From positions 1,058,169 through 1,122,168 of the forward strand of contig NC_134514.1 in NCBI RefSeq assembly GCF_027942865.1: a stretch of DNA of 64,000 nt, written 5' to 3'. The translations under genes and the position numbers were made by a program. Numbering within the stretch: the stretch's first letter is position 1; every line of letters begins with the position of its first letter. Positions 3,250 through 52,567 of this stretch are shown one piece after another. Under the pieces are notes generated by a model. It searched no databases. It had not been told where the DNA came from and was given only the letters and a program-made list of their open reading frames with translations. The stretch is from Odontesthes bonariensis (taxonomy: Eukaryota; Chordata; Actinopteri; Atheriniformes; Atherinopsidae).

Positions 3250-4179
3250 TCAATTCTTTACATTTGAAATAAGATCTTTACAAATATTCCGGATCTTGGA
3301 CATGTTCAGACCATATATCGCAGGATTAAAAAGAGGCTGAACCGTGAAGAAATATAATGACAGAAAAATACGCAACACCTTCGGTACATGACTCATGTTA
3401 AATCTGCTCTGTGATATTTCAAAGGTACCAGCAAAGGTAAAGTTCAAGATGGAAGCCAGGTGAGGCGTGCAGGTGCTGACAGCTTTCTGTCGGGTCTGTT
3501 TGGATCCAGAGAAACATACAATAAAAATCTGAATGTAAGTGTAAAGGATTAGAAATAAAGCAACAATGATTGTGCCAAAAGTAGCAATGAGCCCATAGAT
3601 GTTGATTAAAGTTGTTTCATAGCATGCCAGTTTGACCACAGAGTGCATATCACAGTAAACTTTGTTAATCCTGTTCCCACAGAGCTGCAACGGTGTAATC
3701 AGAGATAAAGAGATAACCATCGCAAAAAAAGGATATAGCCACGTCACAGAGATGAGAATGGCAATCTTTTTAGGTGTCATACGTGAGATGTACTGCAGAG
3801 GATAACAGATAGCAAGATATCTGTCATAGGACATGACAGCGAGGTTTAAAAACTCTACAGCTCCGTAAGAATGAGCAATAAAAAGCTGCAGGAAGCAAAG
3901 AGGAGCAGAAACAGTGTGAACGTCAGAGAGGATCTGAATCAGCAGGAATGGAACCAGCCCTGAACTACCATACAGCTCATTCACAAACAGGCTGCACAGA
4001 AACATGTACATGGGTCCATGTAAGCTCCTGTTCACACCGATAACCACGATGAGCAGAACATTAGAACCAACTATTAAAATATACAATGACAGGGTGAATA
4101 TAAAATAAAAGTACTTTAAAAGTCCAGGGTCAAAGTAACCACCAAGTGTGAAATATGAAACCTGTGAGGTGTTCATCAT
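3250..4179 (-). CDS. Olfactory receptor OR1 (teleost, one-exon GPCR)
   Basis: This is a 309-residue seven-transmembrane odorant receptor, expected in the cilia of olfactory neurons and coupled to G-olf. It has an N-glycosylation site at N3, TM1 with GSN at 38-40, PMYMFLC at 56-62, a C95 disulfide partner, MSYDRYLAICY at 116-126, KAVSTCTPH at 232-240 and PLFNPAIY at 282-289. The start is the first of two adjacent ATGs; either is possible. Length and motifs are complete, so it looks functional. It is about 96% identical to OR2 (13 of 309 residues differ). OR1 departs from its relatives at the usually fixed ACSDT (here ACYET, 185-189), which may mean relaxed constraint. I think it belongs to the fish delta-like OR group, but that rests on memory of motifs. 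Confidence 0.95.
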   Translation of the reverse strand: MMNTSQVSYFTLGGYFDPGLLKYFYFIFTLSLYILIVGSNVLLIVVIGVNRSLHGPMYMFLCSLFVNELYGSSGLVPFLLIQILSDVHTVSAPLCFLQLFIAHSYGAVEFLNLAVMSYDRYLAICYPLQYISRMTPKKIAILISVTWLYPFFAMVISLSLITPLQLCGNRINKVYCDMHSVVKLACYETTLINIYGLIATFGTIIVALFLILYTYIQIFIVCFSGSKQTRQKAVSTCTPHLASILNFTFAGTFEISQSRFNMSHVPKVLRIFLSLYFFTVQPLFNPAIYGLNMSKIRNICKDLISNVKN

Positions 4180-5046
4180 GATGAATCATTCTACACATCA
4201 AACAAAGAATTAGTTCATGTCCTGTGAAACAAAGTTGTTGCATTTCTCCTGGTTCAAATCTGCCTTTTTCAACAAGCTCCCGCTGAAAGATAAAACACAC
4301 ACAAAGCCACCACTGAGAGGACCATCCATGCTTCAAACCTGCTGTCCTGCTTCAGTCTCTCTGCCGACTGAAACATTTCAACTTCCTCAACATCTTTTAA
4401 CTTTTCAGCAGAGGGTGACAGCAGCTGCTGAGTTGCCTCATTATGAAAGTTCCCACTGGTGTTTTAGTTTCCCACCATCTCTGCCCCCCCCCAACTGAAC
4501 ACATCCACTTCTGTCCCTTTTTTCCACCCACTTTTGTGTCGGCTTTGTTTCCCTGCTGATCATGAAAGGCCTTTAATCCCAATAACATGTTGAAGTCTCT
4601 GTCACAGAATGCTGTGATCGACCGTATTAAATGCAGGACTGATGGAGATTTCTTTTTTGTGTGAATCACAATCATTTATACATCAAATATCTGTTTGAAT
4701 CAGATGCTAAATTATTTATCAGGAAGATATTTTATCTTCCAAAACTGCCCTGTTCAGGATGTAGTACGTAAAGAGAACTTGATACATTTGTGTTGGGCTT
4801 ACAAAGAGGAACATTTGTGCTTTGTCAAGTACTCCAAGCATATTCTTTCTACCTTGTGATCAAAATCATCTCACATTCAATCTCCACCACAGCTGTTCAA
4901 ATCTGTTAACTTAAAGTTGTTCCTCTCTGTAAACACAACATTTAAATTCAGATGCGTCAATCAAGCCTGTGAATAAATAACAGAGGAAGCAGGATGTAGC
5001 TCAATATGAGTAGTTAACTCGTTCAAGATATTTGACGTATAGATCA
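4180..5046. other. OR1 upstream region, no gene seen
   Basis: From 4180 to about 4617 this matches unit B (16523-16962) closely and probably holds the OR1 promoter and a 5' exon, though I cannot fix a start site. From 4618 to 5046 the sequence is specific to unit A, A/T-rich, and shows no gene or clear repeat. Confidence 0.5.
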
Positions 5047-6060: not shown

Positions 6061-9000
6061 CTCCTCTCATTTTGAAGCTTTATTTGAACTTCGGACTTGG
6101 AAGTCTTTGGTTTCTGCTTTTATAGTTCATTGTTCACTGTTTGTTGTTCTTGTTGTCATGGGTAATGTCACACAAGTTTACACAGTTTGGAAAAAGATAT
6201 GCATCGCCAGGAGTATAAAGTAGTCACACTAAACGTCAATGGGCTGCATAATCCGATAAAAAGGAGTAAAATTATTGCAAAAATGAAGCGAGAAAAGCCG
6301 CAGATAATATACTGGCAGGAGACACATCTCTCTTCTTCTGAACATGAAAAATTAAAAAAGCTTGGGTTCCAAAATACCTATTATTCATTTCATAAATCAG
6401 GCCGGAGGAGAGGTGTGGCCACACTGATCCCCAATACAGTAAATTTTGAGTTCATTTCCCAGGTGAAAGATAATGAAGGGAGATTTGTCTTAGTAAAAGG
6501 CAAATTAGATAATGAAGCAGTAACTTTATTTAATGCCCCCCCGGGGAGTAACAAATCCTTTTTTAAGAAAATATTCGAATTGATGGTAAAGGAAACACAG
6601 GGAATCCTGATTCTTGGTGGTGACTTTAACATCCAACTTCAACCAAAATTAGATACATCTAACCAACGCCAAAAGAAAAGCCCAAATGCCACCTTGGTTC
6701 AGCGAACGCTTACAGAACTGGGCCTTATTGATGTGTGGAGAGAGTCCCATCCCATAGAAAAACAATTTACATATTACTCCCCTTGTCACTCTGTTTACTC
6801 GCGGATTGATTACTTATTTATGTATAAATCAGACTGGCATAGGGTCAGAGATTGTGAGATAGGGATTAGAGACTTATCTGATCATTCAGGCGTATATTTG
6901 ACCTTATATCTAAACAACCAACGGAAAAATACACTTTGGAGGCTTAATACAAGCATTTTAAATGACTAAGCAGTACGGAAACAGATCCAGCAGGAATTTG
7001 AAACATACCTACAGTATAATGATAATGGAGAAGTGTCTCCTAATACTTTGTGGGATGCAGCAAAGGCTGTAATTCGAGGTAAGATAATTGCCCTTACGGC
7101 CTCAAGATATAAATGGTATATATGATGAAGAAATTGAAAAACAACTTAAATTTATCAAACAAAAGTACTATGAGACAGGATCGAGGGCTATGAAACTCCT
7201 TTCTTGGAGGATCCGAAAACAACAGGATAAAAATACAATATATAAAATTAGGAACCCTGTGACAAAAAATATGAGCGGCAATCTAGAAGACATCCAACGC
7301 TCGTTTGAACTATACTATAAGGACTTGTATACTCAACCAACCAGAGCCGATACCACAATAATAGAGACGTTTCTAAGTTCGCTGGACCTACCATCCATAG
7401 GAGAAAAACAGAACAAAGAAATTATGGCTGAGATAAAGCTAGAAGAATTGAATAAAGCCATCTCAAGATTGAAAGCTAATAAAGCTCCTGGGGCAGATGG
7501 ATATTCGTCTGAATTGTACAAAACATTTAGAACACAAATAACACCCATGCTGCTTAACTGCTTTAACCACACTTTGAGAACAGGAGAAGCCCCGCAGTCA
7601 TGGAAGGAAGCAGTCATTTCTGTCATCCCAAAAGAAGGGAAAGATAAAAATGAATGCAGCTCATATAGACCAATATCAGTCCTCAATGTAGACTATAAAC
7701 TGTTTGCCTCAGTCCTATCTAAAAGGCTGGAAGCTATTATCCCGGAGCTAATAGAGTTGGACCAAACAGGCTTTGTACTAAATAGACAGACACAGGATAA
7801 CTTAAGGAGAACATTACAAGTGATGAGTCATGTTACTTCGACCAAAATTGGTGCAGTGTTGGTCAGTCTAGATGCCGAAAAGGCCTTTGACTCAGTAGGC
7901 TGGGAATATTTGTATAGGGTACTTGCAAGATTTGGCTTTAAGGACTGCTTCACTACATGTATTAAATCGTTATACTCCTCTCCAACAGCCAGGATGAGGA
8001 TAAATGGACACCTGTCACAAACTATTCACCTAGAAAGAGGGACACGCCAGGGATGTCCCCTGAGTCCGACCTTGTTTGCCTTATTTATTGAACCTTTGGC
8101 CCAAGCAATTAGAGAGGACCCTGAGATAAAGGGGACAACTATTAGAGGAGAGGAACATAAAATTTGTATGTTTGCAGATGATGTCCTGCTCTTTATCACA
8201 ACCCCTGACTCGAGCATCCCCAGATTGATGTGTCTATTAAAGACTTACAACTCATACTCTGGATACAAGCTAAATATTCAAACAACTCAAACCCTTACAT
8301 TTAATTATACTCCCCATCCAGATATAAAAAAGAAGTACAACTTTAAATGGGACTCTCCCACAATAAAATATTTAGGAATAAATCTACCAAAAGATATGTC
8401 GAAGCTTTCTGAAATTAATTATGGCCCCATCAACAAAGCGGTAAAATCAGACATCTCTAGATGGACGATGCTCCCGCTGGATATGAGCAATAGAATAGAA
8501 ATAATCAAAATGAATGTGTTGCCACGATTTCTTTATCTCTTCCAGTCCTTACCCCTGGAGATACCACCCAAACAATTTGATGAATGGGACGGGTGGATTT
8601 CAAGGTTTATTTGGAACGGTAAAAGACCGAGGGTACGGTTCAAGACACTGCAATTGAAGAAGGAGACGGGAGGAAGAGCTCTACCATGCTTACAGGACTA
8701 TTATCATGCTGCACAATTGAAACCCTTAGTATACTGGTGTACACCAAATTATGAATCTAAATGGAAGTCTTTGGAAATGACACAGACAGATATTCCAATA
8801 CAATCAATATAGGAAACAAAAGCCAAGCAGAAAAGAATTATAACAGCTTGAATCAATGGACCCTATTCTCGGTTAAACTGTGGTTTAAGGTGTTGAGGAA
8901 ATTGCAGCTAGAGAAACAGGCCAGGGTCTTGAATTGGGTAGCATATGATCCAGAATTTGAACCTGCAAGACTGGACGGGAGCTTTAAACAGTGGATTAGG

Positions 9001-10000
9001 AGAGGCATCACATCCTTTTGTTCACTCACTTCAAACAGTAAATTTCAGAGTTACAAGGCAATTTCTGACTCATTTGGATTGGAAAAATGCGATTTTTTTA
9101 GATACCTACAAGCCAGAGACTACTTTAATAAAATATCACAAATCAAAACGGGGAAAGAATATAACCTGATCTCTTTATTCCATGAAGCATATGAAAAAAA
9201 CAACATTAAAAAACTGATCTCACGAATATATGAAAGTATGCAAACCTCCAAAAATCACTCTACATTATCCATCAAACAAAAATGGGAAAAGGAGTCTGGT
9301 ACAGAAATATCAGATGAGTCTTGGATGGAGAAATGTGAGACACAAGCAACCACTGCGAACTCAAGGTCATTAAGAGAGTTTGGTTGGAAGAATGTTGTGA
9401 GGTTTTTTATCACTCCTAAAATAACAGCTTTGCAATCAGGCTCTCAGAGTCCGGGGCTTTGTTGGAGACAATGTGGAGTCGCTATGGCTAATCATTTTCA
9501 TGTCTTTTGGGCTTGTCAAAGAATTCAACCATATTGGAAGGAAGTAACTAATGAAATATGTAAGATGATGGGACTGGAAATAGACTACTCTTTTACTACT
9601 TTGTATCTAGGTAAAATACCAGAATCTGTCCCTCACAAATGCAAATATCTGCTAAAGATTCTCTTGGCATGTGGTAGAAAGGCTATAACCCGAAAATGGC
9701 TCCGGACTGACCCCCCAGCATTGCACCAGTGGAGGAAAATAGTGAAAGAAGTTTATTGTATGGAGAGACTGACTTATATTTTAAGATTGGAATTGGAGAA
9801 ATGTGTTGAATGTTGGGAAAATGGATCATGTATGCACTGTACCTGGAATAGTGTGACACTGTACTTCGATGTATTGAGAAGAATGTGACCCTATACTGTT
9901 ACACCCATGAGTATGTTGTATGTTTGCTTTTTGTTTTTCCTTTATTTCTTTCTGTACAAAATTCAAAATCCAAAATAAAAAGTTTAAAAAAAAAAAAAAA
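6061..10000 (+). mobile_element. L1/Tx1-type LINE, 5'-truncated, with poly(A) tail
   Basis: The element has an ORF2-like endonuclease-RT region, AATAAA at 9974-9979 and a 15-base A run at 9986-10000. ORF1 is missing. It sits inside repeat block X. Unit B keeps the empty site, where 19193-19284 (about 92 bp) is absent from unit A, so the insertion removed target DNA, and I see no clear target duplication. It inserted after the tandem duplication or was lost from unit B. Few disruptions suggest it is fairly young. Confidence 0.88.
6187..9888 (+). pseudogene. L1 ORF2 (endonuclease + reverse transcriptase), three frame segments
   Basis: Segment 6187-6969 is the endonuclease (LNVNGL, QETHLSS, GGDFNIQL, SRIDYLF, SDHSGVYLTL). 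It ends at an in-frame TAA (6967-6969), after which the frame stays open to about 7105. A frame change then leads into 7088-8812, the RT, with APGADGYSSELYK, SYRPISVLNVDYKLF, LDAEKAFDSVGWEYL, GTRQGCPLSPTLFALF and the catalytic FADD. A second frame change at about 8761-8812 leads to the C-terminal part (to 9888), with a C-x3-C...NHFHVFWAC zinc-knuckle-like motif. One stop and two frame changes in 3.7 kb make it inactive but recent. Confidence 0.88.
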
Positions 10001-10805: not shown

Positions 10806-12696
10806 CCATCCATCCATCCATCCATTATCTTCCGCTGGTCCGGGGATCGGGTCGCGGGGGCAGCAGCTTGAGCAAAGAGACCCAGACGTCCCTGTCCCCG
10901 GCCACTTCCTCCAGCTCTTCTGGGGGGACCCCAAGGCGTTCCCAGGCCAGCCGAGAAACATAGTCTCTTCAACGTGTCCTGGGTCTTCCGCGGGGCCTCC
11001 TCCCAGTAGGACGGGCCCGGAACACCTCACTGGGGAGGCGTCCAGGAGGCATCCTAACCAGATGCCCCAGGAGGCATCCTAACCTGATGCCCCAGGAGGC
11101 ATCCTAACCAGATGCCCCAGGAGGCATCCTAACCAGATGCCCGAGCCACCTCATCTGACTCCTCTCGATGCGGAGGAGCAGCGGTTCTACTCCGAGCCCC
11201 TCCCGGATGACCGAGCTTCTCACCCTATCTCTAAGGGAGAGCCCAGACACCCTGCGGAGGAAACTCATTTCGGCCGCTTGTATTCGCGATCTCGTTCTTT
11301 CGGTCACTACCCACAGCTCGTGACCATAGGTGAGGATAGGATCTCGTTCTTTCGGTCACTACCCACAGCTCGTGACCATAGGTGAGGGTAGGAACATAGA
11401 TTGAGCGGTAAATCGAGAGCTTCGCCTTCTGGCTCAGCTCCTTCTTCACCACGACGGGCCGGTGCAGAGCCCGCATCACTGCAGACGCCGCACCGATCCG
11501 TCTGTCAATCTCCTGCTCCATTCGTCCCTCACTCGTGAACAAGACCCCGAGATACTTGAACTCCTCCACTTGGGGAAGGATCTCATTCCCGACCCGGAGA
11601 GGGCATTCCACCCTTTTCCGGCCGAGGACCATGGTCTCAGATTTGGAGGTGCTGATTCTCATCCCAGCCGCTTCACACTCGGCTGCAAACCGCTCCAGTG
11701 AGAGCTGAAGGTCACGGCCTGAGGACGCCAACAGAACCACATCGTCCGCAAAAAGCAGAGACCCGATTCTGAGGTCGCCAAAACTGACCCCCTCAACGCC
11801 CTGGCTGCGCCTAGAAATTCTGTCCATAAAAATTATGAACAGAATCGGTGACAGAGGGCAGCCCTGACGGAGTCCAACCCTCACAGGAAACATGTCCGAC
11901 TTACTGCCGGCAATGCGGACCAAACTCTGACACCGGTCATACAGAGACCGAACAGCCCATATCAAGGAGTCCGGCACTCCATACTCCCGGAGCACCCCCC
12001 ACAAGAGTCCCCGAGGGACATGGTCGAACGCCTTATCCATTTCCACGAAACACGTGTAGACCAGTTGGGCGAACTCCCATGCACCCTCCAGGATCCTGCG
12101 GAGGGTATAGAGCTGGTCCACTGTTCCACGGCCAGGACGAAAACCACACTGCACCTCCTGAATCCGAGATCCGACTATCCGGCGGATCCTCCTCTCCAGT
12201 ACCCCCGAAAAGACCTTACCAGGGAGGCTGAGGAGTGTGATCCCCCTATAGTTGGAACACACCCTCCGGTCCCCCTTTTTAAAGAGGGGGACCACCACCC
12301 CGATCTGCCAGTCCAGAGGCACTGCCCCCGATGTCCATGCGATGCTGCAGAGGCGTGTCAACCAAGACAGCCCCACAACATCCAGAGCCTTGAGGAACTC
12401 AGGACGGACCTCATCCACCCCTGGGGCCTTGCCACCGAGGAGTTATTTGACCACCTCGGCAACCTCAGTCCCAGAAATGGGAGGTCCCACGTCCGAGCTC
12501 CCCAACTCTGCTTCCTCATCGGAAGGCGTGTCAGTAGGCTTGAGGAGGCCCTCGAAGTATTCCCCCCACCGACTCACGACGTCCCCAGTTGAAGTCAGCA
12601 GAGCCCCGCCCTCACCATACACGGTGTTGACAGTGCACTGCTTTCCCCCCCTGAGCCGCCGGATGGTGGACCAGAATCTCCTCCTAAGCCCGAGTT
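10806..12696 (-). mobile_element. Rex3/RTE LINE, RT and 3' end
   Basis: The 3' terminus is a short ATGG-type tandem repeat (10806-10826), typical of Rex3. Reading leftward from 12696, the minus strand gives an RT frame (12418 to 11231) with SNYRGITLLSLPGKVFSGVL, FVEMDKAFDHVPRG, GLRQGCPLSPILFIIFMDRI and FADDVVLLA, then the GYELWVVTERTRS-type C-terminal domain. An extra copy of a 40-bp stretch near 11290-11380 and a 25-bp repeat at 11038-11142 break the frame. At 12696 the RT joins a Rex3 5' leader, so the endonuclease region has been lost at the junction of the tandem duplication. Confidence 0.88.
11038..11142 (-). repeat. 25-bp tandem repeat inside Rex3, about 4 units
   Basis: The unit, built on GATGCCCCAGGAGGCATCC, repeats about four times at the point coding for RMPPGASG in Rex3. 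The unit length is not a multiple of three. The same site is expanded to nine units in the Rex3 piece at 23140-23362. Confidence 0.85.
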
Positions 12697-15592: not shown

Positions 15593-16522
15593 TCAATTCT
15601 TTACATTTGAAATAAGATCTTTACAAATATTCCGGATCTTGGACATGTTCAGACCATATATCGCAGGATTAAAAAGAGGCTGAACCGTGAAGAAATATAA
15701 TGACAGAAAAATACGCAACACCTTCGGTACATGATTCATGTTAAATCTGCTCTGTGATATTTCAAAGGTAACAGCAAAGGTAAAGTTCAAGATGGAAGCC
15801 AGGTGAGGCGTGCAGGTGCTGACAGCCTTCTGTCGGGTCTGTTTGGATCCAGAGAAACATACAATAAAAATCTGAATGTAAGTGTAAAGGATTAAAAATA
15901 AAGCAACAATGATTGTGCCAAAAGTAGCAATGAGCCCATAGATGTTGATTAAAGTTGTGTCAGAGCATGCCAGCTTGACCACAGAGTGCATATCACAGTA
16001 AACTTTGTTAATCCTGTTCCCACACAGCTGCAACGGTGTAATCAGAGATAGAGCGATAACCAAACCCAAAAAAGGATATATCCACGTCACAGAGATGAGA
16101 ATGGCAATCTTTTTAGGTGTCATACGTGAGATGTACTGCAGAGGATAACAGATAGCAAGATATCTGTCATAGGACATGACAGCGAGGTTTAAAAACTCTA
16201 TACCTCCGTAAGAATGAACAATAAAAAGCTGCAGGAAACAAAGAGGAGCAGAAACAGTGTGAACGTCAGAGAGGATCTGAATCAGCAGGAATGGAAACAG
16301 CCCTGAACTACCATACAGCTCATTCACAAACAGGCTGCACAGAAACATGTACATGGGTCCATGTAAGCTCCTGTTCACACCGATAACCACGATGAGCAGA
16401 ACATTAGAACCAACTATTAAAATATACAATGACAGGGTGAATATAAAATAAAAGTACTTTAAAAGTCCAGGGTCAAAGTAACCACCAAGTGTGAAATATG
16501 AAACCTGTGAGGTGTTCATCAT
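15593..16522 (-). CDS. Olfactory receptor OR2 (duplicate of OR1)
   Basis: This is a 309-residue odorant GPCR with the same layout as OR1: N3 glycosylation site, GSN at 38-40, PMYMFLC at 56-62, MSYDRYLAICY at 116-126, KAVSTCTPH at 232-240 and PLFNPAIY at 282-289. Unlike OR1 it keeps the family-typical SSGLFPFLL and ACSDTTL. The 13 differences from OR1 cluster around TM3-TM5 (residues 76, 102, 107-108, 148-158, 187-188), where odorant contacts are usual. The frame is complete and looks functional. Confidence 0.95.
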   Translation of the reverse strand: MMNTSQVSYFTLGGYFDPGLLKYFYFIFTLSLYILIVGSNVLLIVVIGVNRSLHGPMYMFLCSLFVNELYGSSGLFPFLLIQILSDVHTVSAPLCFLQLFIVHSYGGIEFLNLAVMSYDRYLAICYPLQYISRMTPKKIAILISVTWIYPFLGLVIALSLITPLQLCGNRINKVYCDMHSVVKLACSDTTLINIYGLIATFGTIIVALFLILYTYIQIFIVCFSGSKQTRQKAVSTCTPHLASILNFTFAVTFEISQSRFNMNHVPKVLRIFLSLYFFTVQPLFNPAIYGLNMSKIRNICKDLISNVKN

Positions 16523-17339
16523 GATGAATCATTCTACACATCAAACAAAGAATGAGTTCATGTTCTGTGAAACAAAGTTGTTGCATTTTTCCTGGTTCAA
16601 ATCTGCCTTTTTCAACAAGCTCCCGCTGAAAGATAAAACACACACAAAGCCACCACTGAGAGGACCATCCATGCTTCAAACCTGCTGTCCTGCTTCAGTC
16701 TCTCTGCCGACTGAAACATTTCAACTTCCTCAACATCTTTTAACTTTTCAGCAGAGGGTGACAGCAGCTGCTGAGTTGCCTCATTATGAAAGTTCCCACT
16801 GGTGTTTTAGTTTCCCACCATCTCTGCCCCCCCCCCCCAACTGAACACATCCACTTCTGTCCCTCTTTTCCACCCACTTTTGTGTCGGCTTTGTTTCCCT
16901 GCTGATTATGAAAGGCCTTTAATCCCAATAACATGTTGAAGTCTCTGTCACAGAATGCTGTGATTGTTCGGATCTTCACAATTTAGCCCTCTGAAAAGGC
17001 TTTACAGGTAGCACAAATGTTATGGCTCGTGTTTGTCATAGGTCTTCTTTTATTTGTATTCAAAATGACCACAGGTAATAAACCTGAAACAATCAAACCA
17101 GGTAATAATATTAACGAAATTATAACTTTTTTAAATAGCTTTTTTATTTCAATAAACAAAAACATAATCAATTAAATTATTTCCATAAATAATAGCAATG
17201 TTTGGATTACATAACACGCAGTAGACCCAAAAGTAAATACTATTTTGTATTAGCTAACATAAATCGTCAAAAAACCTAGCAGGAGCTAGCCGACGATGCT
17301 AACCGGAACTAGCCGAGCGCTAAACAAGTGCCCGCCCCC
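16523..17339. other. OR2 upstream region and unit-B-specific DNA
   Basis: From 16523 to 16962 this matches the OR1 upstream region. At 16963 it switches to 376 bp not found in unit A: A/T-rich at first, then G/C-rich with two near-repeats of CTAGC(C/A)G. No gene is seen. Confidence 0.5.
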
Positions 17340-20308: not shown

Positions 20309-21247
20309 TCATGCCAAAATCTTCTTCTGCAGGAAACCTTTCCATGAATTCCGAATCTTAGACATTTGCATTCCGTACACGATTGGATTTAAAAGCGGTT
20401 GGAGCATCAGAAAATACAAAGACAAAGTGAGTCTCAGCACATGGGACCAGCTGCTCATATCAAATCTACTCTGGAGGGTTTCAAATAAGCATCCGAAAGA
20501 GAAATTTACCAGAGAAATGAGGTGAGGCGTGCAGGTGCTGACAGCTTTCTGTCTCGTGTTTCTGGAGCCAGAGAAGCAAACCTTCAGAATCCTGCTGTAA
20601 GAGAAAAGGATCGCCAGCAGAGGGAAAATTACAGAAAAGACTAAACCAATGAGTCCATAAATGTTGTTCACCTGAGCGGCAGAACACGCCAACTTAATTA
20701 TTAAGTAGCTCTGACAGTACAAACTGTTCAGGCTGTTCCCACACAGCGTCAGACGGATGTTGAGGTTCAAAGTGATGAAGCATCGGATGAAACAGTAGAA
20801 CCACGACAAAACAATGAAGACAGTCACCGTGTTCAGTGTCATACGTGTGTTGTATTGTAGAGGATGACAGATGGCCACATATCTGTCATAAGACATAACG
20901 GCTAAGTTACAAAATTCAATATTCGCATAAGTATAAATACAGAAAACCTGCAGGAAGCAGAGAGGAGCAGAAACAGTGTGAACGTCAGAGAGGATCTGAA
21001 TCAGCAGGAATGGAAACAGCCCTGAACTACCATACAGCTCATTTACAAACAGGCTGCACAGAAACATGTACATGGGTTCATGTAAGCTCCTGTTCACACT
21101 GATAACCACGATGAGCCACGCGTTGGCCACAATAATGCTGCCATATAACATCAGCGTTACCACAAAGTAAAAGTATCTCAGCGTCCCTACATTCATGTAA
21201 GCTTCAAGGATGAAATACGACAAAGTGGATAAAGTTGAGTTTAACAT
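20309..21247 (-). CDS. Olfactory receptor OR3
   Basis: This is a 312-residue one-exon odorant GPCR. It has N-glycosylation at N3 (NST), PMYMFLC at 58-64, C97 for the disulfide, MSYDRYVAICHP at 118-129, KAVSTCTPH at 234-242 and PLLNPIVYG at 284-292. Its N-terminus and TM4-TM7 group with OR5 and OR6 (NSTLSTLSYFILEAYMNVG), not with OR1, OR2 and OR4. Yet its TM1-TM3 DNA is nearly identical to that of OR4. There is a single ATG start and the frame is complete. Confidence 0.95.
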   Translation of the reverse strand: MLNSTLSTLSYFILEAYMNVGTLRYFYFVVTLMLYGSIIVANAWLIVVISVNRSLHEPMYMFLCSLFVNELYGSSGLFPFLLIQILSDVHTVSAPLCFLQVFCIYTYANIEFCNLAVMSYDRYVAICHPLQYNTRMTLNTVTVFIVLSWFYCFIRCFITLNLNIRLTLCGNSLNSLYCQSYLIIKLACSAAQVNNIYGLIGLVFSVIFPLLAILFSYSRILKVCFSGSRNTRQKAVSTCTPHLISLVNFSFGCLFETLQSRFDMSSWSHVLRLTLSLYFLMLQPLLNPIVYGMQMSKIRNSWKGFLQKKILA

Positions 21248-21636
21248 GATTTGTTCTGTGTTAGTTCACATAAATAATAATTACTGGCTTTAAAAAGAAT
21301 AAAAATGTCACAAGCAGCATAAAGTTACCTTTTGCTCATGAGAACATTAATGATTCATCATGATGAGCTCAGAGCTTCTGTGAGATCCAGCTCATCTATA
21401 GACTCATTTAAGACCAAAGAGGACCTGTGAGATACACCCTCCGTATCCCCAGTGATGATCTCTGTTTACCATCAGCTTGAATGATACAGAAACACACATT
21501 CATCTGAAATGTCCATCCTCACTTTAACAAAGAATTTCATGCAATACAGCTGGGAAACTGACCATTTTAGCACTTTTTAATTCTTTGTGAATAACCCAGT
21601 AAACAATCATCTTCGTGCTCAGTGGTCCCACAGATG
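21248..21636. other. OR3 upstream region, no gene seen
   Basis: No repeat or gene is recognised. It presumably carries the OR3 promoter; I see no convincing TATA box with a splice donor. Confidence 0.4.
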
Positions 21637-25627: not shown

Positions 25628-25870
25628 ATGTTTCTGTCGGCCAATCAGACCGGAAATGAAAACCTGGGCTCCACCCCACCCCTCACCTGAAAAGGTTAAA
25701 GAGGTATGAGCAGCTCAACCACCCTCACAGCCTGCATCACACTGATGTTGAATCATCTGACAGTCAGTTGAACACGTGGAGAGTTTGTGGTTTTGAGCTT
25801 TGACAAACTGTTGGAGAGTAATCACAGTGTATCCTCTTTCTGAACAGCGGTAATGACTGGAAAGGTGATC
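25628..25870. promoter_or_regulatory. OR4 5' flank with probable splice acceptor
   Basis: A pyrimidine-rich stretch ending TTTCTGAACAG (about 25838-25848) just before the OR4 start looks like a 3' splice site, fitting the usual OR layout of a 5' non-coding exon and a single coding exon. The upstream exon is not identified. Confidence 0.4.
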
Positions 25871-26809
25871 ATGGTAAACTCCACACAGGTTTCATATTTC
25901 ACCCTCACTGCTTACTTTGACACTGGGCGTTTGAAGCATTTATACTTTCTGGTTGTGCTGACTCTTTATATCCTGATCATCAGCTCTAATGTTCTGCTCA
26001 TCGTGGTTATCAGTGTGAACAGGAGCTTACATGAACCCATGTACATGTTTCTGTGCAGCCTGTTTGTAAATGAGCTGTATGGTAGTTCAGGGCTGTTTCC
26101 ATTCCTGCTGATTCAGATCCTCTCTGACGTTCACACTGTTTCTGCTCCTCTCTGTTTCCTGCAGGTTTTCTGTTTGCACTCGTACGGAGGTGTAGAGTTT
26201 TTCACCCTGGCCATCATGTCTTATGACAGATATCTTGCTATCTGTTATCCTCTGCATTACAACATACGCATGACATCTAATAAGATTGCTGTGCTCACTG
26301 CTGTTTTATGGGTCTACCCTTTCCTTTCTAATGTCTTCCTTGTGTTTGTACTAACTGTCCCTTTACAGCTGTGTGGGAACCTCATCAACAAAGTGTACTG
26401 TGATAACTACTATATCGTAAAACTGGCCTGCTCTGACACCACAGTCAATAACATCTGTGGACTTGTTAAGATGTTTACAGTCATCCTGGGTCTGATTGTT
26501 CTAATCATTTACACTTATATTAGAATCCTGAAAGTGTGTTTTTCTGGGTCCAAACAAACCCGACAGAAGGTTTTCAGTACCTGCACACCACACCTGGCTT
26601 CTCTGCTCAACTTCTCCTTTGGGGCCTTTTTTGAAATTGTGCAGAGTAGGTTTAACTTGAGCAGGTTACCGAACATGCTGCGCATCTTTTTGTCCTTGTA
26701 CTGGCTCACATGTCAGCCGCTTGTCAATCCTGTGCTTTACGGACTGAAAATGTCCAAAATAAGAAACGCATGTAAAGATCTGCTTTTTGGGAGGAAGATC
26801 TACCTCTAA
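25871..26809 (+). CDS. Olfactory receptor OR4
   Basis: This is a 312-residue odorant GPCR counted from the ATG at 25871. An ATG at 25853 would add MTGKVI, but the relatives start M(x)NSTQVSYF, so I take the inner one. It has N3 glycosylation, PMYMFLC at 56-62, IMSYDRYLAICYP near 115-127, KVFSTCTPH near 232-240 (K-V-F in place of K-A-V) and PLVNPVLYG near 282-290. It groups with OR1 and OR2 and has the opposite orientation. The frame is complete. Confidence 0.95.
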   Translation: MVNSTQVSYFTLTAYFDTGRLKHLYFLVVLTLYILIISSNVLLIVVISVNRSLHEPMYMFLCSLFVNELYGSSGLFPFLLIQILSDVHTVSAPLCFLQVFCLHSYGGVEFFTLAIMSYDRYLAICYPLHYNIRMTSNKIAVLTAVLWVYPFLSNVFLVFVLTVPLQLCGNLINKVYCDNYYIVKLACSDTTVNNICGLVKMFTVILGLIVLIIYTYIRILKVCFSGSKQTRQKVFSTCTPHLASLLNFSFGAFFEIVQSRFNLSRLPNMLRIFLSLYWLTCQPLVNPVLYGLKMSKIRNACKDLLFGRKIYL

Positions 26810-33970: not shown

Positions 33971-34971
33971 TTAAAGGAAAACGCTGGAAAGTTTCAAATG
34001 TACTATTTTCCCTGGAAGATGTTCCCCAAACTCAATTTCTCACCTTGTTTACATTTGTCAGCCCGAGAGAGTAACATTCGCGAATGTTTGAAATTCAAGT
34101 TATACCGCTCTGGCTCTGCCTCCCTAGCGCCGCCATGTTCACTCAACATGACGTCAGAAATGCAAACATTTTTTCTACAGCAATGGAAGACACTTACGAA
34201 CTGTCTTGGTCTGACTCGGACCCGGAGATAGAATGCGAAGTTTCGCCTGAGTCCGAGTCAGATCATGATCAGCCTCTCGATCCAAGTTATGTTAGCTTAG
34301 CCATCAGCCGAGATGGTCGGATAAGGCTAAAAATAAGGACGGACAAGTGGCTGTCGCAGCAGCCGCGGCACCGCCGCCAAATGCTAACGACTCACCGGTT
34401 GTATCCACGAGCCGTGAGGCGTTTCCGGACCCCATGCCCAACCTTGTGTACCGTTTCCAGGCCTACCGGCAGGTGACCTACTTTCTCCATGGGAGACTTG
34501 GGAAGCGCTTCCGAAGAGTGATTCCCTCCTGTGCGGTGTGGGCGATCAGGGATAAATATGAGTCGCAGGACGGGACCTACAAGGGTTTCCTTCACGCCGA
34601 CGAGGCAGTTGTAGACTATCACTACAGATATATGTGAACATACATGTTGAAATAAAAATAATTTCTAATTCTACTATATACAGGTAGTATTCAATCATTG
34701 TGTATTTCCAAGTTACACTCTACACTTTGTTAGAGCACACTCCCGCCACACAAGTAGAATTTTTGTTTCCGCTGCACAAGTAGAATTTGCATTTCTGACG
34801 TAAAATATGCCCGGATGTGGCTGAACATGGCTGCGCCCATGGCTAGAAGTGAAAAAATCTGGGAGCGCAAGGTTATGGGTTGAATAATGTAAAACAGTGT
34901 GAGAAATCGATTTTGGGGGACAGGTGTCAGGGAAAATAGAAAAATTGAAATTTTCCGACGTTTTCCTTTAA
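33971..34971 (+). mobile_element. TTAA-flanked DNA element (Kolobok- or piggyBac-like) with P2X7-type domain
   Basis: TTAA lies at 33971-33974 and 34968-34971. Immediately inside are inverted repeats AGGAAAACG / CGTTTTCCT that extend imperfectly to about 24 bp (GGAAA and TTTCAA also match). The 993-bp element has no transposase. It codes instead for an acidic leader and the C-terminal half of a P2X7 cytosolic (ballast) domain. TTAA targets are used by Kolobok and piggyBac; an AGG start leans to Kolobok. Confidence 0.75.
34183..34637 (+). pseudogene. P2X7-type cytosolic domain protein, broken
   Basis: It starts MEDTYELSWSDSDPEIECEV, an acidic leader typical of fish proteins that carry the P2X7 intracellular domain. 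A frame change at about 34345 leads to YRFQAYRQVTYFLHGRLGKR, FRRVIPSCAVWAIRDKYESQ and DGTYKGFLHADEA, the conserved end of that domain. The cysteine-rich zinc-binding core expected between the two parts is missing. TTTTTTCTACAG just before the ATG could be a splice acceptor. The domain is recognised from memory. Confidence 0.7.
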
Positions 34972-42055: not shown

Positions 42056-42333
42056 CTTTGTGCAGCTTTGACACATCATTTCTAAAATCAGAGACATGTA
42101 GAAAGGTCAGGAAATATTTAATTCTTTTAAATCAAACTGCTTTATTTTCTGTTTTTGGTGAGAAAAAAAGATGCAAACATGAACTAAAGGGTTATATTTT
42201 CTTCTGTAAGTGAACACGTATTCTATAAAACTACGTTCAGTCCAACCTGTTTGTAAATGAACTATAAATGTAAATAATAAGTTTTGACCTGATAATAGAA
42301 CCTTTGAAATCTGCACCAAGTTTGATCAGAAGA

Positions 42334-43296
42334 ATGAAGTTAAATTCAACTTCATCAACTTTGTCTCATTTCATTCTTGGTGCTTATTTGAATGTTGGAA
42401 AGTTGAGATACTTCTTCTTCCTGATGGCCGCTTCGCTGTACGTTGTTATAGTCGTGGCCAACGCGTCGCTCATCGTGGTTATCAGTGTGAACAGGAGCTT
42501 ACATGAACCCATGTACATGTTTCTGTGCAGCCTGTTTGTAAATGAACTGTATGGTAGTTTAGGGCTGTTTCCATTCCTGCTGATTCAGATCCTCTCTGAC
42601 GTTCACACTGTTTCTGCTCCTCTCTGCTTCCTGCAGATCTTCTGTGTTTATACTTACGGAAGTGTTGAGTTTTGTAACTTGGCCGTCATGTCTTACGACA
42701 GATATGTGGCCATCTGTTATCCTCTGCAGTACAGCACACGCATGACGCTACGCAGCGCTGCTGTGATCATCGTTCTGACTTGGCTTTACTGTTTTGTGAA
42801 GTTTTTCATCAACTTGTCTTTAACCATCCGCTTGTCGTTCTGCGGAAACATCTTAAACAGTTTGTACTGTCAGAACTACGGGGTGGTTAAATTAGCCTGT
42901 TCTGACACCCAGGTGAATAACTTTTACGGTATTTTTGGTATTTTTCTCTCTGTTTTTGCTCCCCTGCTTCCAATCATCTTCTCCTACATGAAAATCCTGA
43001 GAGTGTGTTTCGTGGGTTCCAGGCAGATGAGGCAGAAGGCCGTCAGCACCTGCTCGCCTCACCTCGTGTCTCTCGTGAACTTTTCTTTCGGCAGCTGCTT
43101 TGAGATTCTTCAGAGCAGATTTGATCTGACCGGCGTCCCCGCTGAGCTGAAGCTCATTCTGTCCCTCTACTTTCTCATCATACAACCCTTTCTAAACCCT
43201 GTCATGTACGGACTGCAGATGTCAAAGATAAGAAAAATATACAAACACGTGCTCTGTTTTAAGATTATAGATCAGCGGAAAAATACTGCGTCATGA
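42334..43296 (+). CDS. Olfactory receptor OR5
   Basis: This is a 320-residue odorant GPCR from the first ATG in frame (MKLNSTSSTLSHF); the open frame extends ten codons upstream without an ATG. It has N4 glycosylation (NST), PMYMFLC near 59-65, MSYDRYVAICYP near 119-130, KAVSTCSPH near 235-243 and PFLNPVMYG near 285-293. It groups with OR3. It differs from OR6 at four residues only. Complete frame. Confidence 0.95.
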   Translation: MKLNSTSSTLSHFILGAYLNVGKLRYFFFLMAASLYVVIVVANASLIVVISVNRSLHEPMYMFLCSLFVNELYGSLGLFPFLLIQILSDVHTVSAPLCFLQIFCVYTYGSVEFCNLAVMSYDRYVAICYPLQYSTRMTLRSAAVIIVLTWLYCFVKFFINLSLTIRLSFCGNILNSLYCQNYGVVKLACSDTQVNNFYGIFGIFLSVFAPLLPIIFSYMKILRVCFVGSRQMRQKAVSTCSPHLVSLVNFSFGSCFEILQSRFDLTGVPAELKLILSLYFLIIQPFLNPVMYGLQMSKIRKIYKHVLCFKIIDQRKNTAS

Positions 43297-43734: not shown

Positions 43735-44363
43735 CGAACACATAAAACGCATATAAATACATATAAACACATATGAACACATAAATACATATAAACACAT
43801 GTAAACACATATTAACACATAAAACACATATAAGCACATATAAATACATATAAATACATATAAAACACATATGAACACATAAATACATGTAAACACATAT
43901 TAACACATAAATACATATAAACACATGTAAACACATATGAACACATAAATACATATAAACACATGTAAACACATATTAACACATAAAACACATATAAGCA
44001 AATATAAATACATATAAAACACATATGAACACATAAATACATGTAAACACATATTAACACATAAAACACATATAAGCAAATATAAATACATATAAATACA
44101 TATGAACACATAAACACATGTGAACACATATTAACACATAAAACACATATAAGCACATATAAATACATATGAATACATATAAACACATATGAACACATAA
44201 ATACATATAAACACATGTAAACACATATTAACACATAAAACACATATAAGCAAATATAAATACATATAAAACACATATGAACACATAAATACATGTAAAC
44301 ACATATTAACACATAAAACACATATAAGCAAATATAAATACATATAAACACATATAAACACAT
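43735..44363. repeat. 10-bp-unit satellite array, left sub-array (about 78-bp higher-order unit)
   Basis: The basic unit is ACATATAAAC with variants (ACATGTAAAC, ATTAACACAT, AAGCAAATAT). ATTAACACATAAAACACATA recurs at 43811, 43975, 44053, 44130, 44227 and 44305, mostly 77-82 bp or twice that apart, so a higher-order unit of about 78 bp exists. The minus strand is open in all frames because of the repeat, not because it codes. Confidence 0.93.
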
Positions 44364-44452
44364 AATACTGTGTCATGATTCATTATGAACAGAAGATTAA
44401 AAACGTGTGGTTTAAGCTACGGAAGCCCGGAGCGGACGTGGTGCGTATAAAC
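44364..44452 (+). repeat. OR 3'-end relic inside the array
   Basis: These 89 bp match 43281-43367 closely: the last codons of OR5/OR6 with the TGA stop, ATTCATTATGAACAGAAG, and CGGAAGCCCGGAGCGGACG down to GTGCGTATAAAC. After that the array resumes. This is the tail end of a third OR duplication unit, otherwise replaced by array. Confidence 0.93.
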
Positions 44453-47400
44453 ACATATAAATACATATAAACACATATAAATACATATAAACACATATAA
44501 ACACATAAAACACATATAAACACATATAAACACATAAAACACATATAAACACATATAAATACATATAAACACATATAAACACATATAAATACATAAAACA
44601 CATATAAACACATATAAATACATAAAACACATATAAACACATATAAATAAATATAAACACATATAAACATATATAAACACATATAAACACATAAAACACA
44701 TATAAACACATATAAACACATATAAATACATAAAACACATATAAACACATATAAATACGTATAAACACATATAAACATATATAAACACATAAAACACATA
44801 TAAACACATATAAATACATATAAACACATATAAACACATATAAACACATAAAACACATATAAATACATATAAACACATATAAACACATATAAATACATAT
44901 AAACACATATAAACACATATAAATACATATAAACACATATAAATACGTATAAACACATATAAACACATATAAATACATAAAACACATATAAACACATATA
45001 AATACATAAAACACATATAAACACATATAAATAAATATAAACACATATAAACATATATAAACACATATAAATACATAAAACACATATAAACACATATAAA
45101 TACATATAAATACATAAAACACATATAAACACATATAAATAAATATAAACACATATAAACATATATAAACACATATAAACACATATAAATACATAAAACA
45201 TATAAACACATATAAATACATATAAACATATATAAACACATATAAACACATAAAACACATATAAATACATATAAACACATATAAACACATGAAACACATA
45301 TAAATAAATATAAACACATATAAACATATATAAACACATATAAACATATATAAACACATATAAATACATAAAACACATATAAACATATATAAACACATAT
45401 AAACACATATAAATACATAAAACACATATAAACACATAAAACACATATAAACACATATAAATACATATAAACACATATAAACATATATAAACACATAAAA
45501 CACATATAAATACATATAAACACATATAAACACATATAAATACATATAAACACATATAAATACGTATAAACACATATAAACACATATAAATACATAAAAC
45601 ACATATAAACACATATAAATAAATATAAACACATATAAACATATATAAACACATATAAATACATAAAACACATATAAACACATATAAATACATAAAACAC
45701 ATATAAACACATATAAATAAATATAAACACATATAAACATATATAAACACATATAAACACATATAAATACATAAAACATATAAACACATATAAATACATA
45801 TAAACATATATAAACACATATAAACACATAAAACACATATAAATACATATAAACACATATAAACACATATAAATACATAAAACACATATAAACACATATA
45901 AATAAATATAAACACATATAAACATATATAAACACATATAAACATATATAAACACATATAAATACATAAAACACATATAAACATATATAAACACATATAA
46001 ACACATATAAATACATAAAACACATATAAACACATATAAATACATAAAACACATATATAAACACATATAAATAAATATAAACACATATAAACATATATAA
46101 ACACATATAAATAAATATAAACACATATAAACATATATAAACACATATAAACACATATAAATACATAAAACACATATAAATACATAAAACATATAAACAC
46201 ATATAAATACATATAAACATATATAAACACATATAAACACATAAAACACATATAAATACATATAAACACATATAAACATATATAACACATATAAATACAT
46301 ATAAACACATAAAACACATATAAATACATATAAACACATATAAACATATATAAACACATATAACACATATAAAGACATATAAACATATATAAACACATAT
46401 GAACACATATAAACATATATAGACAGATATAAACACATATAAATACATATAAACACATACAAACACATATAAACATATATAAACACATATAAACACATAC
46501 AAACACATATAAACATATATAAACACATATAAACACATATAAATACATAAAACATATAAACACATATAAATACATATAAACACATATAAACACATAAAAC
46601 ACATATAAACACATATAAACACATATAAACATATATAAACACATATAACACATATAAAGACATATAAAGACATATAAACACATATAAACATATATAAACA
46701 CATATAACACATATAAAGACATATAAACACATATAAACACATAAAACACATATAAACACATATAAACACATATAAACATATATAAACACATATAACACAT
46801 ATAAAGACATATAAACACATATAAACATATATAGACAGATATAAACACATATAAATACATATAAACACATACAAACACATATAAACATATTTAAACACAT
46901 ATAAACACATATAAATACATAAAACATATAAACACATATAAATACATATAAACACATATAAACACATAAAACACATATAAACACATATAAACATATATAA
47001 ACACATATAAACACATATAAAGACATATAAACACATATAAACACATATAAACATATATAAACACATATAACACATATAAAGACATATAAACACATATAAA
47101 CACATAAAACACATATAAACACATATAAACACATATAAACATATATAAACACATATAACACATATAAAGACATATAAACACATATAAACATATATAGACA
47201 GATATAAACACATATAAATACATATAAACACATACAAACACATATAAACATATATAAACACATATAAACACATATAAATACATAAAACATATAAACACAT
47301 ATAAATACATATAAACACATATAAACACATAAAACACATATAAACACATATAAACACATATAAACATATAGAAACACATATAACACATACAAACACATAT

Positions 47401-50260
47401 AACACATATAAAGACATATAAACACATATAACACATATAAAGACATATAAACACATATAAACATATATAGACAGATATAAACACATATAAATACATATAA
47501 ACACATACAAACACATATAAACATATATAAACACATATAAACACATATAAATACATAAAACATATAAACACATATAAATACATATAAACACATATAAACA
47601 CATAAAACACATATAAACATATATAAACACATATAACACATATAAAGACATATAAACACATATAAACACATATAAACATATATAAACACATATAACACAT
47701 ATAAAGACATATAAACACATATAAACACATATAAACATATATAAACACATATAACACATATAAAGACATATAAAGACATATAACACATATAAAGACATAT
47801 AAACACATATAAACACATATAAACATATATAAACACATATAACACATATAAAGACATATAAACACATATAAACATATATAAACACATATAACACATATAA
47901 AGACATATAAACACATATAACACATATAAAGACATATAAACACATATAAACATATATAAACATATATAACACATATAAAGACATATAAACACATATAACA
48001 CATATAAAGACATATAAACACATATAAACATATATAAACATATATAAACACATATAACACATATAAAGACATATAAACACATATAAACACATATAAACAT
48101 ATATAAACACATAAAACACATATAAACACATATAAACACATATAAACACATATAACACATATAAAGACATATAAACACATATAAACATATATAAACACAT
48201 ATAACACATATAAAGACATATAAACACATATAACACATATAAAGACATATAAACACATATAAATACATATAAACACATATAAACACATAAAACACATATA
48301 AACACATATAAACACATATAAACATATATAAACACATATAACACATATAAAGACATATAAAGACATATAAACACATATAAACATATATAAACACATATAA
48401 CACATATAAAGACATATAAACACATATAAACACATAAAACACATATAAACACATATAAACACATATAAACATATATAAACACATATAACACATATAAAGA
48501 CATATAAACACATATAAACATATATAGACAGATATAAACACATATAAATACATATAAACACATACAAACACATATAAACATATTTAAACACATATAAACA
48601 CATATAAATACATAAAACATATAAACACATATAAATACATATAAACACATATAAACACATAAAACACATATAAACACATATAAACATATATAAACACATA
48701 TAAACACATATAAAGACATATAAACACATATAAACACATATAAACATATATAAACACATATAACACATATAAAGACATATAAACACATATAAACACATAA
48801 AACACATATAAACACATATAAACACATATAAACATATATAAACACATATAACACATATAAAGACATATAAACACATATAAACATATATAGACAGATATAA
48901 ACACATATAAATACATATAAACACATACAAACACATATAAACATATATAAACACATATAAACACATATAAATACATAAAACATATAAACACATATAAATA
49001 CATATAAACACATATAAACACATAAAACACATATAAACACATATAAACACATATAAACATATAGAAACACATATAACACATACAAACACATATAACACAT
49101 ATAAAGACATATAAACACATATAACACATATAAAGACATATAAACACATATAAACATATATAGACAGATATAAACACATATAAATACATATAAACACATA
49201 CAAACACATATAAACATATATAAACACATATAAACACATATAAATACATAAAACATATAAACACATATAAATACATATAAACACATATAAACACATAAAA
49301 CACATATAAACATATATAAACACATATAACACATATAAAGACATATAAACACATATAAACACATATAAACATATATAAACACATATAACACATATAAAGA
49401 CATATAAACACATATAAACACATATAAACATATATAAACACATATAACACATATAAAGACATATAAAGACATATAACACATATAAAGACATATAAACACA
49501 TATAAACACATATAAACATATATAAACACATATAACACATATAAAGACATATAAACACATATAAACATATATAAACACATATAACACATATAAAGACATA
49601 TAAACACATATAACACATATAAAGACATATAAACACATATAAACATATATAAACATATATAACACATATAAAGACATATAAACACATATAACACATATAA
49701 AGACATATAAACACATATAAACATATATAAACATATATAAACACATATAACACATATAAAGACATATAAACACATATAAACACATATAAACATATATAAA
49801 CACATAAAACACATATAAACACATATAAACATATATAAACACATATAACACATATAAAGACATATAAACACATATAAACATATATAAACACATATAACAC
49901 ATATAAAGACATATAAACACATATAACACATATAAAGACATATAAACACATATAAACATATATAAACATATATAAACACATATAACACATATAAAGACAT
50001 ATAAATACATATAACACATATAAAGACATATAAACACATATAAACATATATACACAGATATAAACACATATAAATACATATAAACACATACAAACACATA
50101 TAAACACATATAAACATATATAAACACATATAAACACATATAAATACATAAAACATATAAAGACATATAAACACATATAAACACATAAAACACATATAAA
50201 CACATATAAACATATATAAACACATATAACACATACAAACACATATAAAACACATATAAA
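44453..50260. repeat. 10-bp-unit satellite array, right sub-array
   Basis: About 5.8 kb of ACATATAAAC units with variants of 8, 9, 10 and 12 bp (ACATAAAAC, ACATATAACAC, ACATATATAAAC, ACATATAAAG). Long reading frames on the minus strand, the longest nearly 2,000 codons of CLYVFICVYM-type repeats, are a result of the 10-bp period: 30 bp give ten codons and every frame reads the same decapeptide. Confidence 0.96.
46555..49940. repeat. 1,693-bp higher-order repeat, two tandem copies
   Basis: Rare variants recur exactly 1,693 bp apart: TATTTAAACA at 46888 and 48581, TATAGAAACAC at 47368 and 49061, and the AAAGACATATAAAGACATAT pair at 46656 and 48349. The copies are about 46555-48247 and 48248-49940, with few differences, so this is a recent duplication within the array. 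Confidence 0.9.
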
Positions 50261-50825
50261 CAGGGGCGGACTGGGGAGACCCTAACCCTGTCATTAATGG
50301 AGCTGTGACATAAAGCACCAAGCAGCAGACTGATGCACAGAAGGGTGAAATATGCTTAAATGTGTCACCTAAAATAATTTGATGCTTTGTTGCCTTAAAC
50401 AAAAATGTGTTAAATTAAATTCTATCTTACAAACATTTTCCCTTTTAGTTCTTTACCCCTATAACCACCTGCTCGAACATTTGAGGGAGCTTATTCTTCA
50501 TTTCCACACTCTTATCTTATCAAAGAATCATGGCAGTGAACCTACCTGAACCATCCCTGAAACTTGTTTAGTTGTGTGATGCTAAAAGAAAGAAAACTTT
50601 CACCATCAAGTGAAGAAACATTTTGCTTTTTGCTTTTTTTGTCAGAGCGAATATGAATAGTTTAAAGATGGAAGTGAAATAGAGTTTAGGCAGGTGGTAC
50701 CAGGCAGACATGGAAGTGGCTCGGTGTTCCTAGATGTTTAAGTACTGTGGCACTGTATGGGAAAGGCATACTCCAGCTCCCAGTTTCTAGTCTAGTAGAG
50801 GAGTTTAAATTTAAATACAATGCAA
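50261..50825. other. Array right flank, unit-specific
   Basis: It begins CAGGGGCGGACTGGGGAGA, the exact reverse complement of OR5 3'-flank bases 43434-43452, then changes to sequence without recognisable features. Confidence 0.5.
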
Positions 50826-51326: not shown

Positions 51327-51604
51327 CTTTGTGCAGCTTTGACGCACCATTTCTAAAATCAGAAACATGTAGAAAGGTCAGGAAATATTTAATTCTTTTA
51401 AATCAAACTGCTTTATTTTCTGTTTTTGGTGAGAAAAAAAGATGCAAACATGAACTAAAGGGTTATATTTTCTTCTGTAAGTGAACACGTATTCTATAAA
51501 ACTACGTTCAGTCCAACCTGTTTGTAAATGAACTATAAATGTAAATAATAAGTTTTGACCTGATAATAGAACCTTTGAAATCTGCACCAAGTTTGATCAG
51601 AAGA

Positions 51605-52567
51605 ATGAAGTTGAATTCAACTTCATCAACTTTGTCTCATTTCATTCTTGGTGCTTATTTGAATGTTGGAAAGTTGAGATACTTCTTCTTCCTGATGGCC
51701 GCTTCGCTGTACGTTGTTATAGTCGTGGCCAACGCGTCGCTCATCGTGGTTATCAGTGTGAACAGGAGCTTACATGAACCCATGTACATGTTTCTGTGCA
51801 GCCTGTTTGTAAATGAACTGTATGGTAGTTTAGGGCTGTTTCCATTCCTGCTGATTCAGATCCTCTCTGACGTTCACACTGTTTCTGCTCCTCTCTGCTT
51901 CCTGCAGATCTTCTGTGTTTATACTTACGGAAGTGTTGAGTTTTGTAACTTGGCCGTCATGTCTTACGACAGATATGTGGCCATCTGTTATCCTCTGCAG
52001 TACAGCACACGCATGACGCTACGCAGCGCTGCTGTGATCATCGTTCTGACTTGGCTTTACTGTTTTGTGAAGTTTTTCATCGTCTTGTCTTTAACCATCC
52101 GCTTGTCGTTCTGCGGAAACATCTTAAACAGTTTGTACTGTCAGAACTACGGGGTGGTTAAATTAGCCTGTTCTGACACCCAGGTGAATAACTTTTACGG
52201 TATTTTTAGTATTTTTCTCTCTGTTTTTGCTCCCCTGCTTCCAATCATCTTCTCCTACATGAAAATCCTGAGAGTGTGTTTCGTGGGTTCCAGGCAGATG
52301 AGGCAGAAGGCCGTCAGCACCTGCTCGCCTCACCTCGTGTCTCTCGTGAACTTTTCTTTCGGCAGCTGCTTTGAGATGCTTCAGAGCAGATTTGATCTGA
52401 CCGGCGTCCCCGCTGAGCTGAAGCTCTTTCTGTCCCTCTACTTTCTCATCATACAACCCTTTCTAAACCCTGTCATGTACGGACTGCAGATGTCAAAGAT
52501 AAGAAAAATATACAAACACGTGCTCTGTTTTAAGATTATAGATCAGCGGAAAAATACTGCGTCATGA
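51605..52567 (+). CDS. Olfactory receptor OR6 (duplicate of OR5)
   Basis: This is a 320-residue odorant GPCR, complete. It differs from OR5 by N to V in FFINLSL, G to S in FYGIFGIF, I to M in CFEILQ and I to F in LKLILSL. All four are in or next to membrane segments. The promoter region is also duplicated, so both genes could be expressed. Confidence 0.95.
   Translation: MKLNSTSSTLSHFILGAYLNVGKLRYFFFLMAASLYVVIVVANASLIVVISVNRSLHEPMYMFLCSLFVNELYGSLGLFPFLLIQILSDVHTVSAPLCFLQIFCVYTYGSVEFCNLAVMSYDRYVAICYPLQYSTRMTLRSAAVIIVLTWLYCFVKFFIVLSLTIRLSFCGNILNSLYCQNYGVVKLACSDTQVNNFYGIFSIFLSVFAPLLPIIFSYMKILRVCFVGSRQMRQKAVSTCSPHLVSLVNFSFGSCFEMLQSRFDLTGVPAELKLFLSLYFLIIQPFLNPVMYGLQMSKIRKIYKHVLCFKIIDQRKNTAS

Follow-up and report, generated by a model that had tools for sequence, protein, structure and literature searches.

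A young family of short, very probably Kolobok-derived elements carrying the end of a P2X7-type ballast domain in Odontesthes bonariensis

Introduction

Kolobok transposons have termini of the form 5'-RR and YY-3' and duplicate a TTAA target, the duplication being common to Kolobok and piggyBac elements (PMC9587614). The features described for Kolobok transposases are a THAP domain with the motif AVPTIF, a DDE core, a C/DxxH motif and an H2CH motif (PMC9587614; PMC6004289). AGGRR is reported as the end motif of the Kolobok-linked T2-MITEs (PMC6004289). In the account of Kojima and Bao (2022; PMC9587614), the Kol0 (Kolobok0) lineage encodes a DDD/E transposase together with a second protein, KolX, which has the fold of the P2X7 ballast domain, and P2X7 itself is described as having arisen by fusion with KolX. 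The same source mentions a few piggyBac families that carry a relative of the KolX C-terminus without most of its cysteines. Capture of the ballast domain by a P2X4-like gene is described by Rump et al. (2020; PMC7016195). A search for the whole word KolX in the set of papers covered had Kojima and Bao (PMC9587614) as its sole match, and a search on P2X7-like predictions together with transposable elements found no paper.

Anatomy of the 993-bp unit

The window, a stretch of 64,000 nucleotides of the O. bonariensis genome, contains a unit of 993 bp at 33975-34967 that is bracketed exactly by TTAA, as read directly from the sequence. The features of the unit, and the olfactory-receptor-like frames around it, are as follows (window coordinates; strand where one applies).

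33971-33974: left TTAA target-site duplication (direct reading)
33975-34064, + strand: left terminal inverted repeat, starting AGGAAAACG; 79% identity to the right end over 91 bp
34183-34284, + strand: acidic KolX N-terminal leader (MEDTYELSWSDSDPEIECEVSPESESDHDQPLDP); in one frame with the ballast part in the 276-aa KolX of a longer relative, L060
34386-34408: junction of internal deletion 1, with templated filler (a short stretch of neighbouring KolX sequence in inverted orientation)
34446-34637, + strand: KolX / P2X7 ballast domain, C-terminal end to the stop codon (PF20478, E 4.3e-9)
34735-34736: junction of internal deletion 2 (~5 kb in the 6.3-kb copy, transposase gene included), from the alignment to copy A
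34877-34967, - strand: right terminal inverted repeat, ending CGTTTTCCT; paired with the left end
34968-34971: right TTAA target-site duplication (direct reading)
3250-4185, 15593-16528, 20309-21265, 25844-26809, 42274-43296 and 51545-52567: olfactory-receptor-like frames (by eye)

The initial annotation had placed TTAA and the limits of the unit at these positions, which hold; in place of the 24-bp inverted repeats that it proposed, we find repeats of 91 bp at 79% identity. With gaps allowed, the ends are complementary over about 200 bp per side, with an alignment score of 122, whereas 200 base shuffles reached 39 at most. The first bases of the left end are common to two relatives of 5.7 and 6.3 kb described below, and the AGGAA at the start of the unit fits AGGRR. 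The readable content had been described as an acidic leader and the end of the P2X7 intracellular domain, and the profile search suggested at the time bears this out. The ballast frame matches PF20478 (P2RX7_C) with an E-value of 4.3e-9 and 37 bits (cut-off 23.5) over profile positions 144-191 of 192, which is the C-terminal end only, or the last quarter of the domain. This end is the sole recognised protein content of the unit. The acidic leader precedes it, and the leader frame of the window copy had nothing above the cut-off in Pfam. In the window copy the leader is out of frame with the ballast fragment.

The six frames of about 310-340 aa listed above resemble intronless olfactory receptor genes in translation. 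Those at 42274 and 51545 are nearly identical and therefore seem to reflect a recent tandem duplication in the cluster. Window positions 43812-50414 hold a very long low-complexity tandem array with open frames of up to 2000 aa (by eye); its translation is rich in Y, C, V, F, I and M, and it is not a gene. Frames like LINE endonuclease and reverse transcriptase were seen by eye at 6166-9888 and 11231-12442, among others.

Copies of the element in the genome

A DNA search with the unit was run against the window's own genome (945 Mb, 187 contigs), and the best 40 of 126 candidates were scored. All 40 reach within 3 bases of the ends of the unit; TTAA stands on both sides of 34 of them, and their printed flanks differ. 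A widened set of loci from the same genome holds at least 52 distinct full-length insertions, with TTAA on both sides in 46 and on at least one side in all 52. The best matches were listed first, and these copy counts are lower bounds. The unit is not a chance arrangement, since all 40 scored copies span it and the 52 full-length insertions carry TTAA. A second copy of the element's flanks, as an empty site, was sought within the window and none was found.

The family is young. Its 52 insertions diverge from the family majority by a mean of 0.79% (range 0.20-1.71%). The longest ATG-started frame is a 124-aa ORF holding the ballast end in 35 of the first 40 copies. The window copy, which is without the shared ATG part of this frame, is among the two most diverged of those 40 (13 substitutions). 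Four of the loci, members of a subgroup with a 133-aa frame, match the window copy from end to end at about 97% identity. At element position 813-832, copy L070 is longer by about 1.1 kb and copy L090 by about 0.75 kb, the added DNA probably being nested insertions.

Longer relatives with KolX and a transposase

A search of the same genome with the DNA of the ballast end, in which 40 of 103 candidates were scored, brought up locus L060 on contig C20. L060 has the same left end and a frame of 276 aa in which the acidic leader is followed by a cysteine-rich ballast domain. This KolX matches PF20478 with an E-value of 4.3e-13 over profile positions 65-191, and in full it aligns with P2X7 residues 472-591 of PDB 9e3m (E 1.1e-4). 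Downstream, in the 3' part of KolX, L060 is split by an LTR retrotransposon (from L060 ~1740 to L071 ~3600, C20), which has a frame with SCAN and zinc-knuckle domains and is flanked by an apparent 5-bp duplication (by eye). The cysteine-rich part of KolX occurs at six places in the genome (six of six candidates scored). One of these, L072, is L060 itself. Two are short copies with KolX alone: L073, the same locus as L062, which measures 1246 bp, and L076, which has 1253 bp between its ends. A fourth, L074, is broken up by about 4.6 kb of other DNA.

The other two of the six places are long copies with the same ends and TTAA on both sides, one of 6301 bp (C14:3856471-3862771) and one of 5678 bp (C2:29817696-29823373). 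In each, KolX is encoded on one strand, and the opposite strand encodes a DDE-type transposase with Kolobok motifs. The KolX of the C2 copy matches PF20478 (E 2.7e-9), and that of the C14 copy is among the matches of the KolX protein search given below. The transposase strand of the C14 copy encodes a THAP domain (PF05485, E 1.1e-14) and has an open frame of 481 aa; the THAP scan was of this copy, and a similar frame was seen by eye in the C2 copy. Against Pfam the 481-aa frame had no Kolobok transposase match and a weak MULE match below the cut-off (E 0.1), and a PDB search with the DDE frame returned one chance match (E 0.59).

A string scan of both long copies found AVPTIF, GDGRCD, ATDRH, DVFHMAK and LEVFHGMLLKY in each, and the H2CH-like HVANQH..CEH in the C14 copy only. 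Their order along the strand opposite KolX in the C14 copy is AVPTIF, GDGRCD, ATDRH, DVFHMAK, HVANQH...CEH, LEVFHGMLLKY. At the level of motifs, we read these strings as a DDE core with DxxH and H2CH, in order and spread over three reading frames; any assignment of catalytic or other single residues would be our own reading at that level only. The spread over three frames is what introns would give, although decay could produce it too. An intron also fits the GT...AG-like borders seen by eye ahead of LEVFH in the C2 copy. AVPTIF occurs twice in the C14 copy (L078 and L075; positions 5775 and 6772 of the joined copy A), and the end of the THAP region seems to be duplicated there. Both long copies look damaged, with the KolX frame broken in the C14 copy and part of KolX missing from the C2 copy.

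The initial annotation had proposed to search the host and other fish genomes for copies with the same ends and TTAA flanks, and to look there for longer relatives in which a Kolobok or piggyBac transposase accompanies the P2X7-type frame. The host genome contains both: the 52 full-length copies, and two relatives of 5.7-6.3 kb with KolX and a DDE-type transposase, a THAP domain being confirmed in one. The annotation would have dropped its reading had the inverted repeats not been shared or had the domain profile given no hit, and neither was the case.

Origin of the short element

Alignment with the joined 6.3-kb C14 copy (A), which served as the reference, shows the 993-bp unit to be an element with KolX and transposase after two internal deletions. 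Element positions 440-762 are 97% identical to A 1790-2112, the 3' part of KolX, and positions 761-993 are 97% identical to A 7136-7366, the right end. Positions 1-417 match the left end of the C14 copy at 81% with gaps and that of L060 at 92%, and positions 1-399 match the left end of the C2 copy at 87%. Since the left part is only 81% (C14) or 87% (C2) identical, the direct parent may be another copy.

Deletion 1 took about 285 bp of KolX, as measured in the 6.3-kb copy, with all of the KolX cysteines but one. At its junction, element positions 412-434 equal the reverse complement of A 1777-1799 at 22 of 23 bases, and from this inverted filler of about 20 bp of KolX we infer template switching during repair. 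Deletion 2 took about 5 kb with the transposase gene; two bases are common to both sides. The 1.25-kb KolX copies (L062/L073 and L076) were considered as direct ancestors of the unit, and L062 is rejected as such. The junctions of L062 (1246 bp) were aligned in detail: its right-hand junction differs and it is without parental sequence that the unit has kept. L062 looks like an independent derivative.

The parent type, as we see it from the long copies, is about 6 kb long and encodes KolX, including the P2X7-type ballast domain, with a THAP-DDE transposase encoded on the opposite strand. This transposase would recognise the retained ends (up to ~417 bp on the left and 233 bp on the right) and would mobilise the short element in trans, by cut-and-paste into TTAA sites. 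The ballast fragment of the short element is a remnant of KolX and is probably without activity.

The ballast domain elsewhere in the genome

A genome search with PF20478 gave 596 candidates, of which 150 were scored, and the 150 scored matches are above the family cut-off. The best place is C7:6162286-6162756 (E 4.0e-63), with a second nearby at C7:6159970-6160116. They lie just downstream of P2X-receptor exons at C7:6145210-6152247, found in a search with PF00864 (51 matches). We take C7:6145210-6162756 to be the host P2rx7 gene and the two PF20478 matches to be P2rx7 exons. Comparison of the two lists by eye put every other listed PF20478 place at least half a million bases away from any listed P2X match. 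Among the PF20478 matches, the top 35, with P2rx7 counted in, span at least 110 of the 192 profile positions; many later ones are confined to roughly positions 142-192, in frames some 84 aa long. A search of the genome with the KolX protein gave 868 candidates, 150 of them scored, and 232 matches.

A second high-copy repeat was seen at loci L107-L110 (C4:34757900, C12:3085700, C26:7320900 and C14:6127400), where it fills the 1.7-1.8 kb fetched. Its KolX-type ballast end occupies an 84-aa frame preceded by a likely splice acceptor, and in L107 a frame with a cysteine motif (CQCG...) lies upstream of the ballast-end frame. L107, the one of these short matches that was read, therefore looks like an intron-bearing KolX gene in another, longer repeat. 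A 908-aa open frame with a ballast fragment (C4:1154395) was considered as a gene fusion and rejected; it is a microsatellite read-through beside a truncated copy. Viral contigs scanned with the ballast fragment gave seven pattern matches and no relative.

Identity of the element and alternative explanations

From the copies, their ends, the target duplication and the anatomy of the parent-type copies, all of which are observed, we consider that the 993-bp unit is very probably a non-autonomous, internally deleted Kolobok of the Kol0 type, presumably moved by the transposase of the parent type and carrying the KolX fragment as a probably idle remnant. The window copy and the two long relatives all have RR/YY termini (AG...CT). 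The THAP domain is present in the 6.3-kb relative and absent from the window copy. A second protein, KolX with the ballast domain, is found in L060 and the 5.7-kb relative, and the window copy has its C-terminal end only. A piggyBac-type element with a KolX C-terminal piece would also leave TTAA duplications, but these are common to Kolobok and do not discriminate, and the window copy does resemble the piggyBac families with a KolX C-terminal relative in being without the cysteine-rich part. The absent cysteines are, however, accounted for by the visible deletion. The RR/YY ends of the unit argue against piggyBac, as do the relatives with the same ends, which encode KolX and a DxxH-type DDE protein (with THAP confirmed in one), and a Pfam scan of five frames of the long relatives had no piggyBac domain up to an E-value of 0.5. 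On the type of ends and the transposase of the relatives we reject a piggyBac identity as extremely unlikely. Capture of the ballast fragment as cargo from the host P2rx7 gene, whose locus at C7:6145210-6162756 has the same Pfam domain, deserves practically no credence: over 323 bp the DNA of the fragment is 97% identical to the KolX gene of the 6.3-kb element itself, which explains it in full. With the relatives' own KolX accounting for the fragment, host-gene cargo is rejected.

It is very unlikely that the short element still makes a working truncated KolX of up to 124 aa that regulates transposition and whose frame is kept by selection. We see an equally slight chance that such a protein would act on the transposase of the parent, as the transposon's own regulator bred from the P2X7-ballast protein family. 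The 124-aa frame is kept in 35 of 40 copies, but in a family this young most frames should be intact even if selection is absent. Within the ballast end of the 52 copies, the 42 distinct variants include 16 synonymous ones (11.6 expected, P 0.075) and one that creates a stop (2.2 expected, P 0.32), and variants are a little sparser there (0.22 vs 0.28 per base), but all of these departures fall short of significance. When the full 124-aa frame is compared among 40 copies, synonymous changes make up 24 of 73 distinct variants (33% vs 27% expected), and the density of variants is about that outside the frame (0.196 vs 0.206 per base). The cysteine-rich part has been lost, and the window copy itself is without the shared ATG part. 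Indels occur in the ballast end in 4 of the 52 copies and anywhere in the element in 29. The variation of the fragment is compatible with neutral drift and also with weak constraint. Selection on the retained frame is rejected, the departures being not significant.

The results support the suggestion of the initial annotation that the domain may travel with a transposon family: KolX in the long relatives is the family's own protein and not captured cargo. The option of cargo falls away, and in place of a working protein the 993-bp unit probably holds an idle remnant.

Comparison with known systems

The transposon origin of the P2X7 domain has already been published, as Kojima and Bao present it (PMC9587614), and the 993-bp family is a well-resolved one of a known kind. 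The addition made here is one more genome with a young, well-resolved family, parent-type copies included; it confirms from raw sequence that the P2X7 ballast domain has its home among Kolobok transposons. Young families with a readable KolX are material for studying the role of KolX in the transposon, and hence the former role of the ballast domain. Annotators should be aware that, in such genomes, a 'P2X7-like' prediction may represent a transposon protein.

The closest described system is Kol0 (PMC9587614). As that source describes it, Kol0 shares with our element the TTAA duplication and the RR/YY ends, and its combination of proteins is matched by our parent-type copies, with a THAP-DDE-type transposase and a KolX ballast domain. 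The window copy differs in being a 993-bp deletion derivative without the transposase and without most of the KolX cysteines. The T2-type MITEs and Kolobok elements described from Xenopus (PMC6004289) likewise have a TTAA site, the AGGRR motif and many similar short copies. The host is another one here, and in contrast to the T2-type MITEs as described there, our family has parent-type copies with the same ends and a readable coding remnant. The P2X7 ballast domain, in the form described by Rump et al. (PMC7016195), is homologous; the version in our element is that of a transposon protein and is not fused to a P2X channel.
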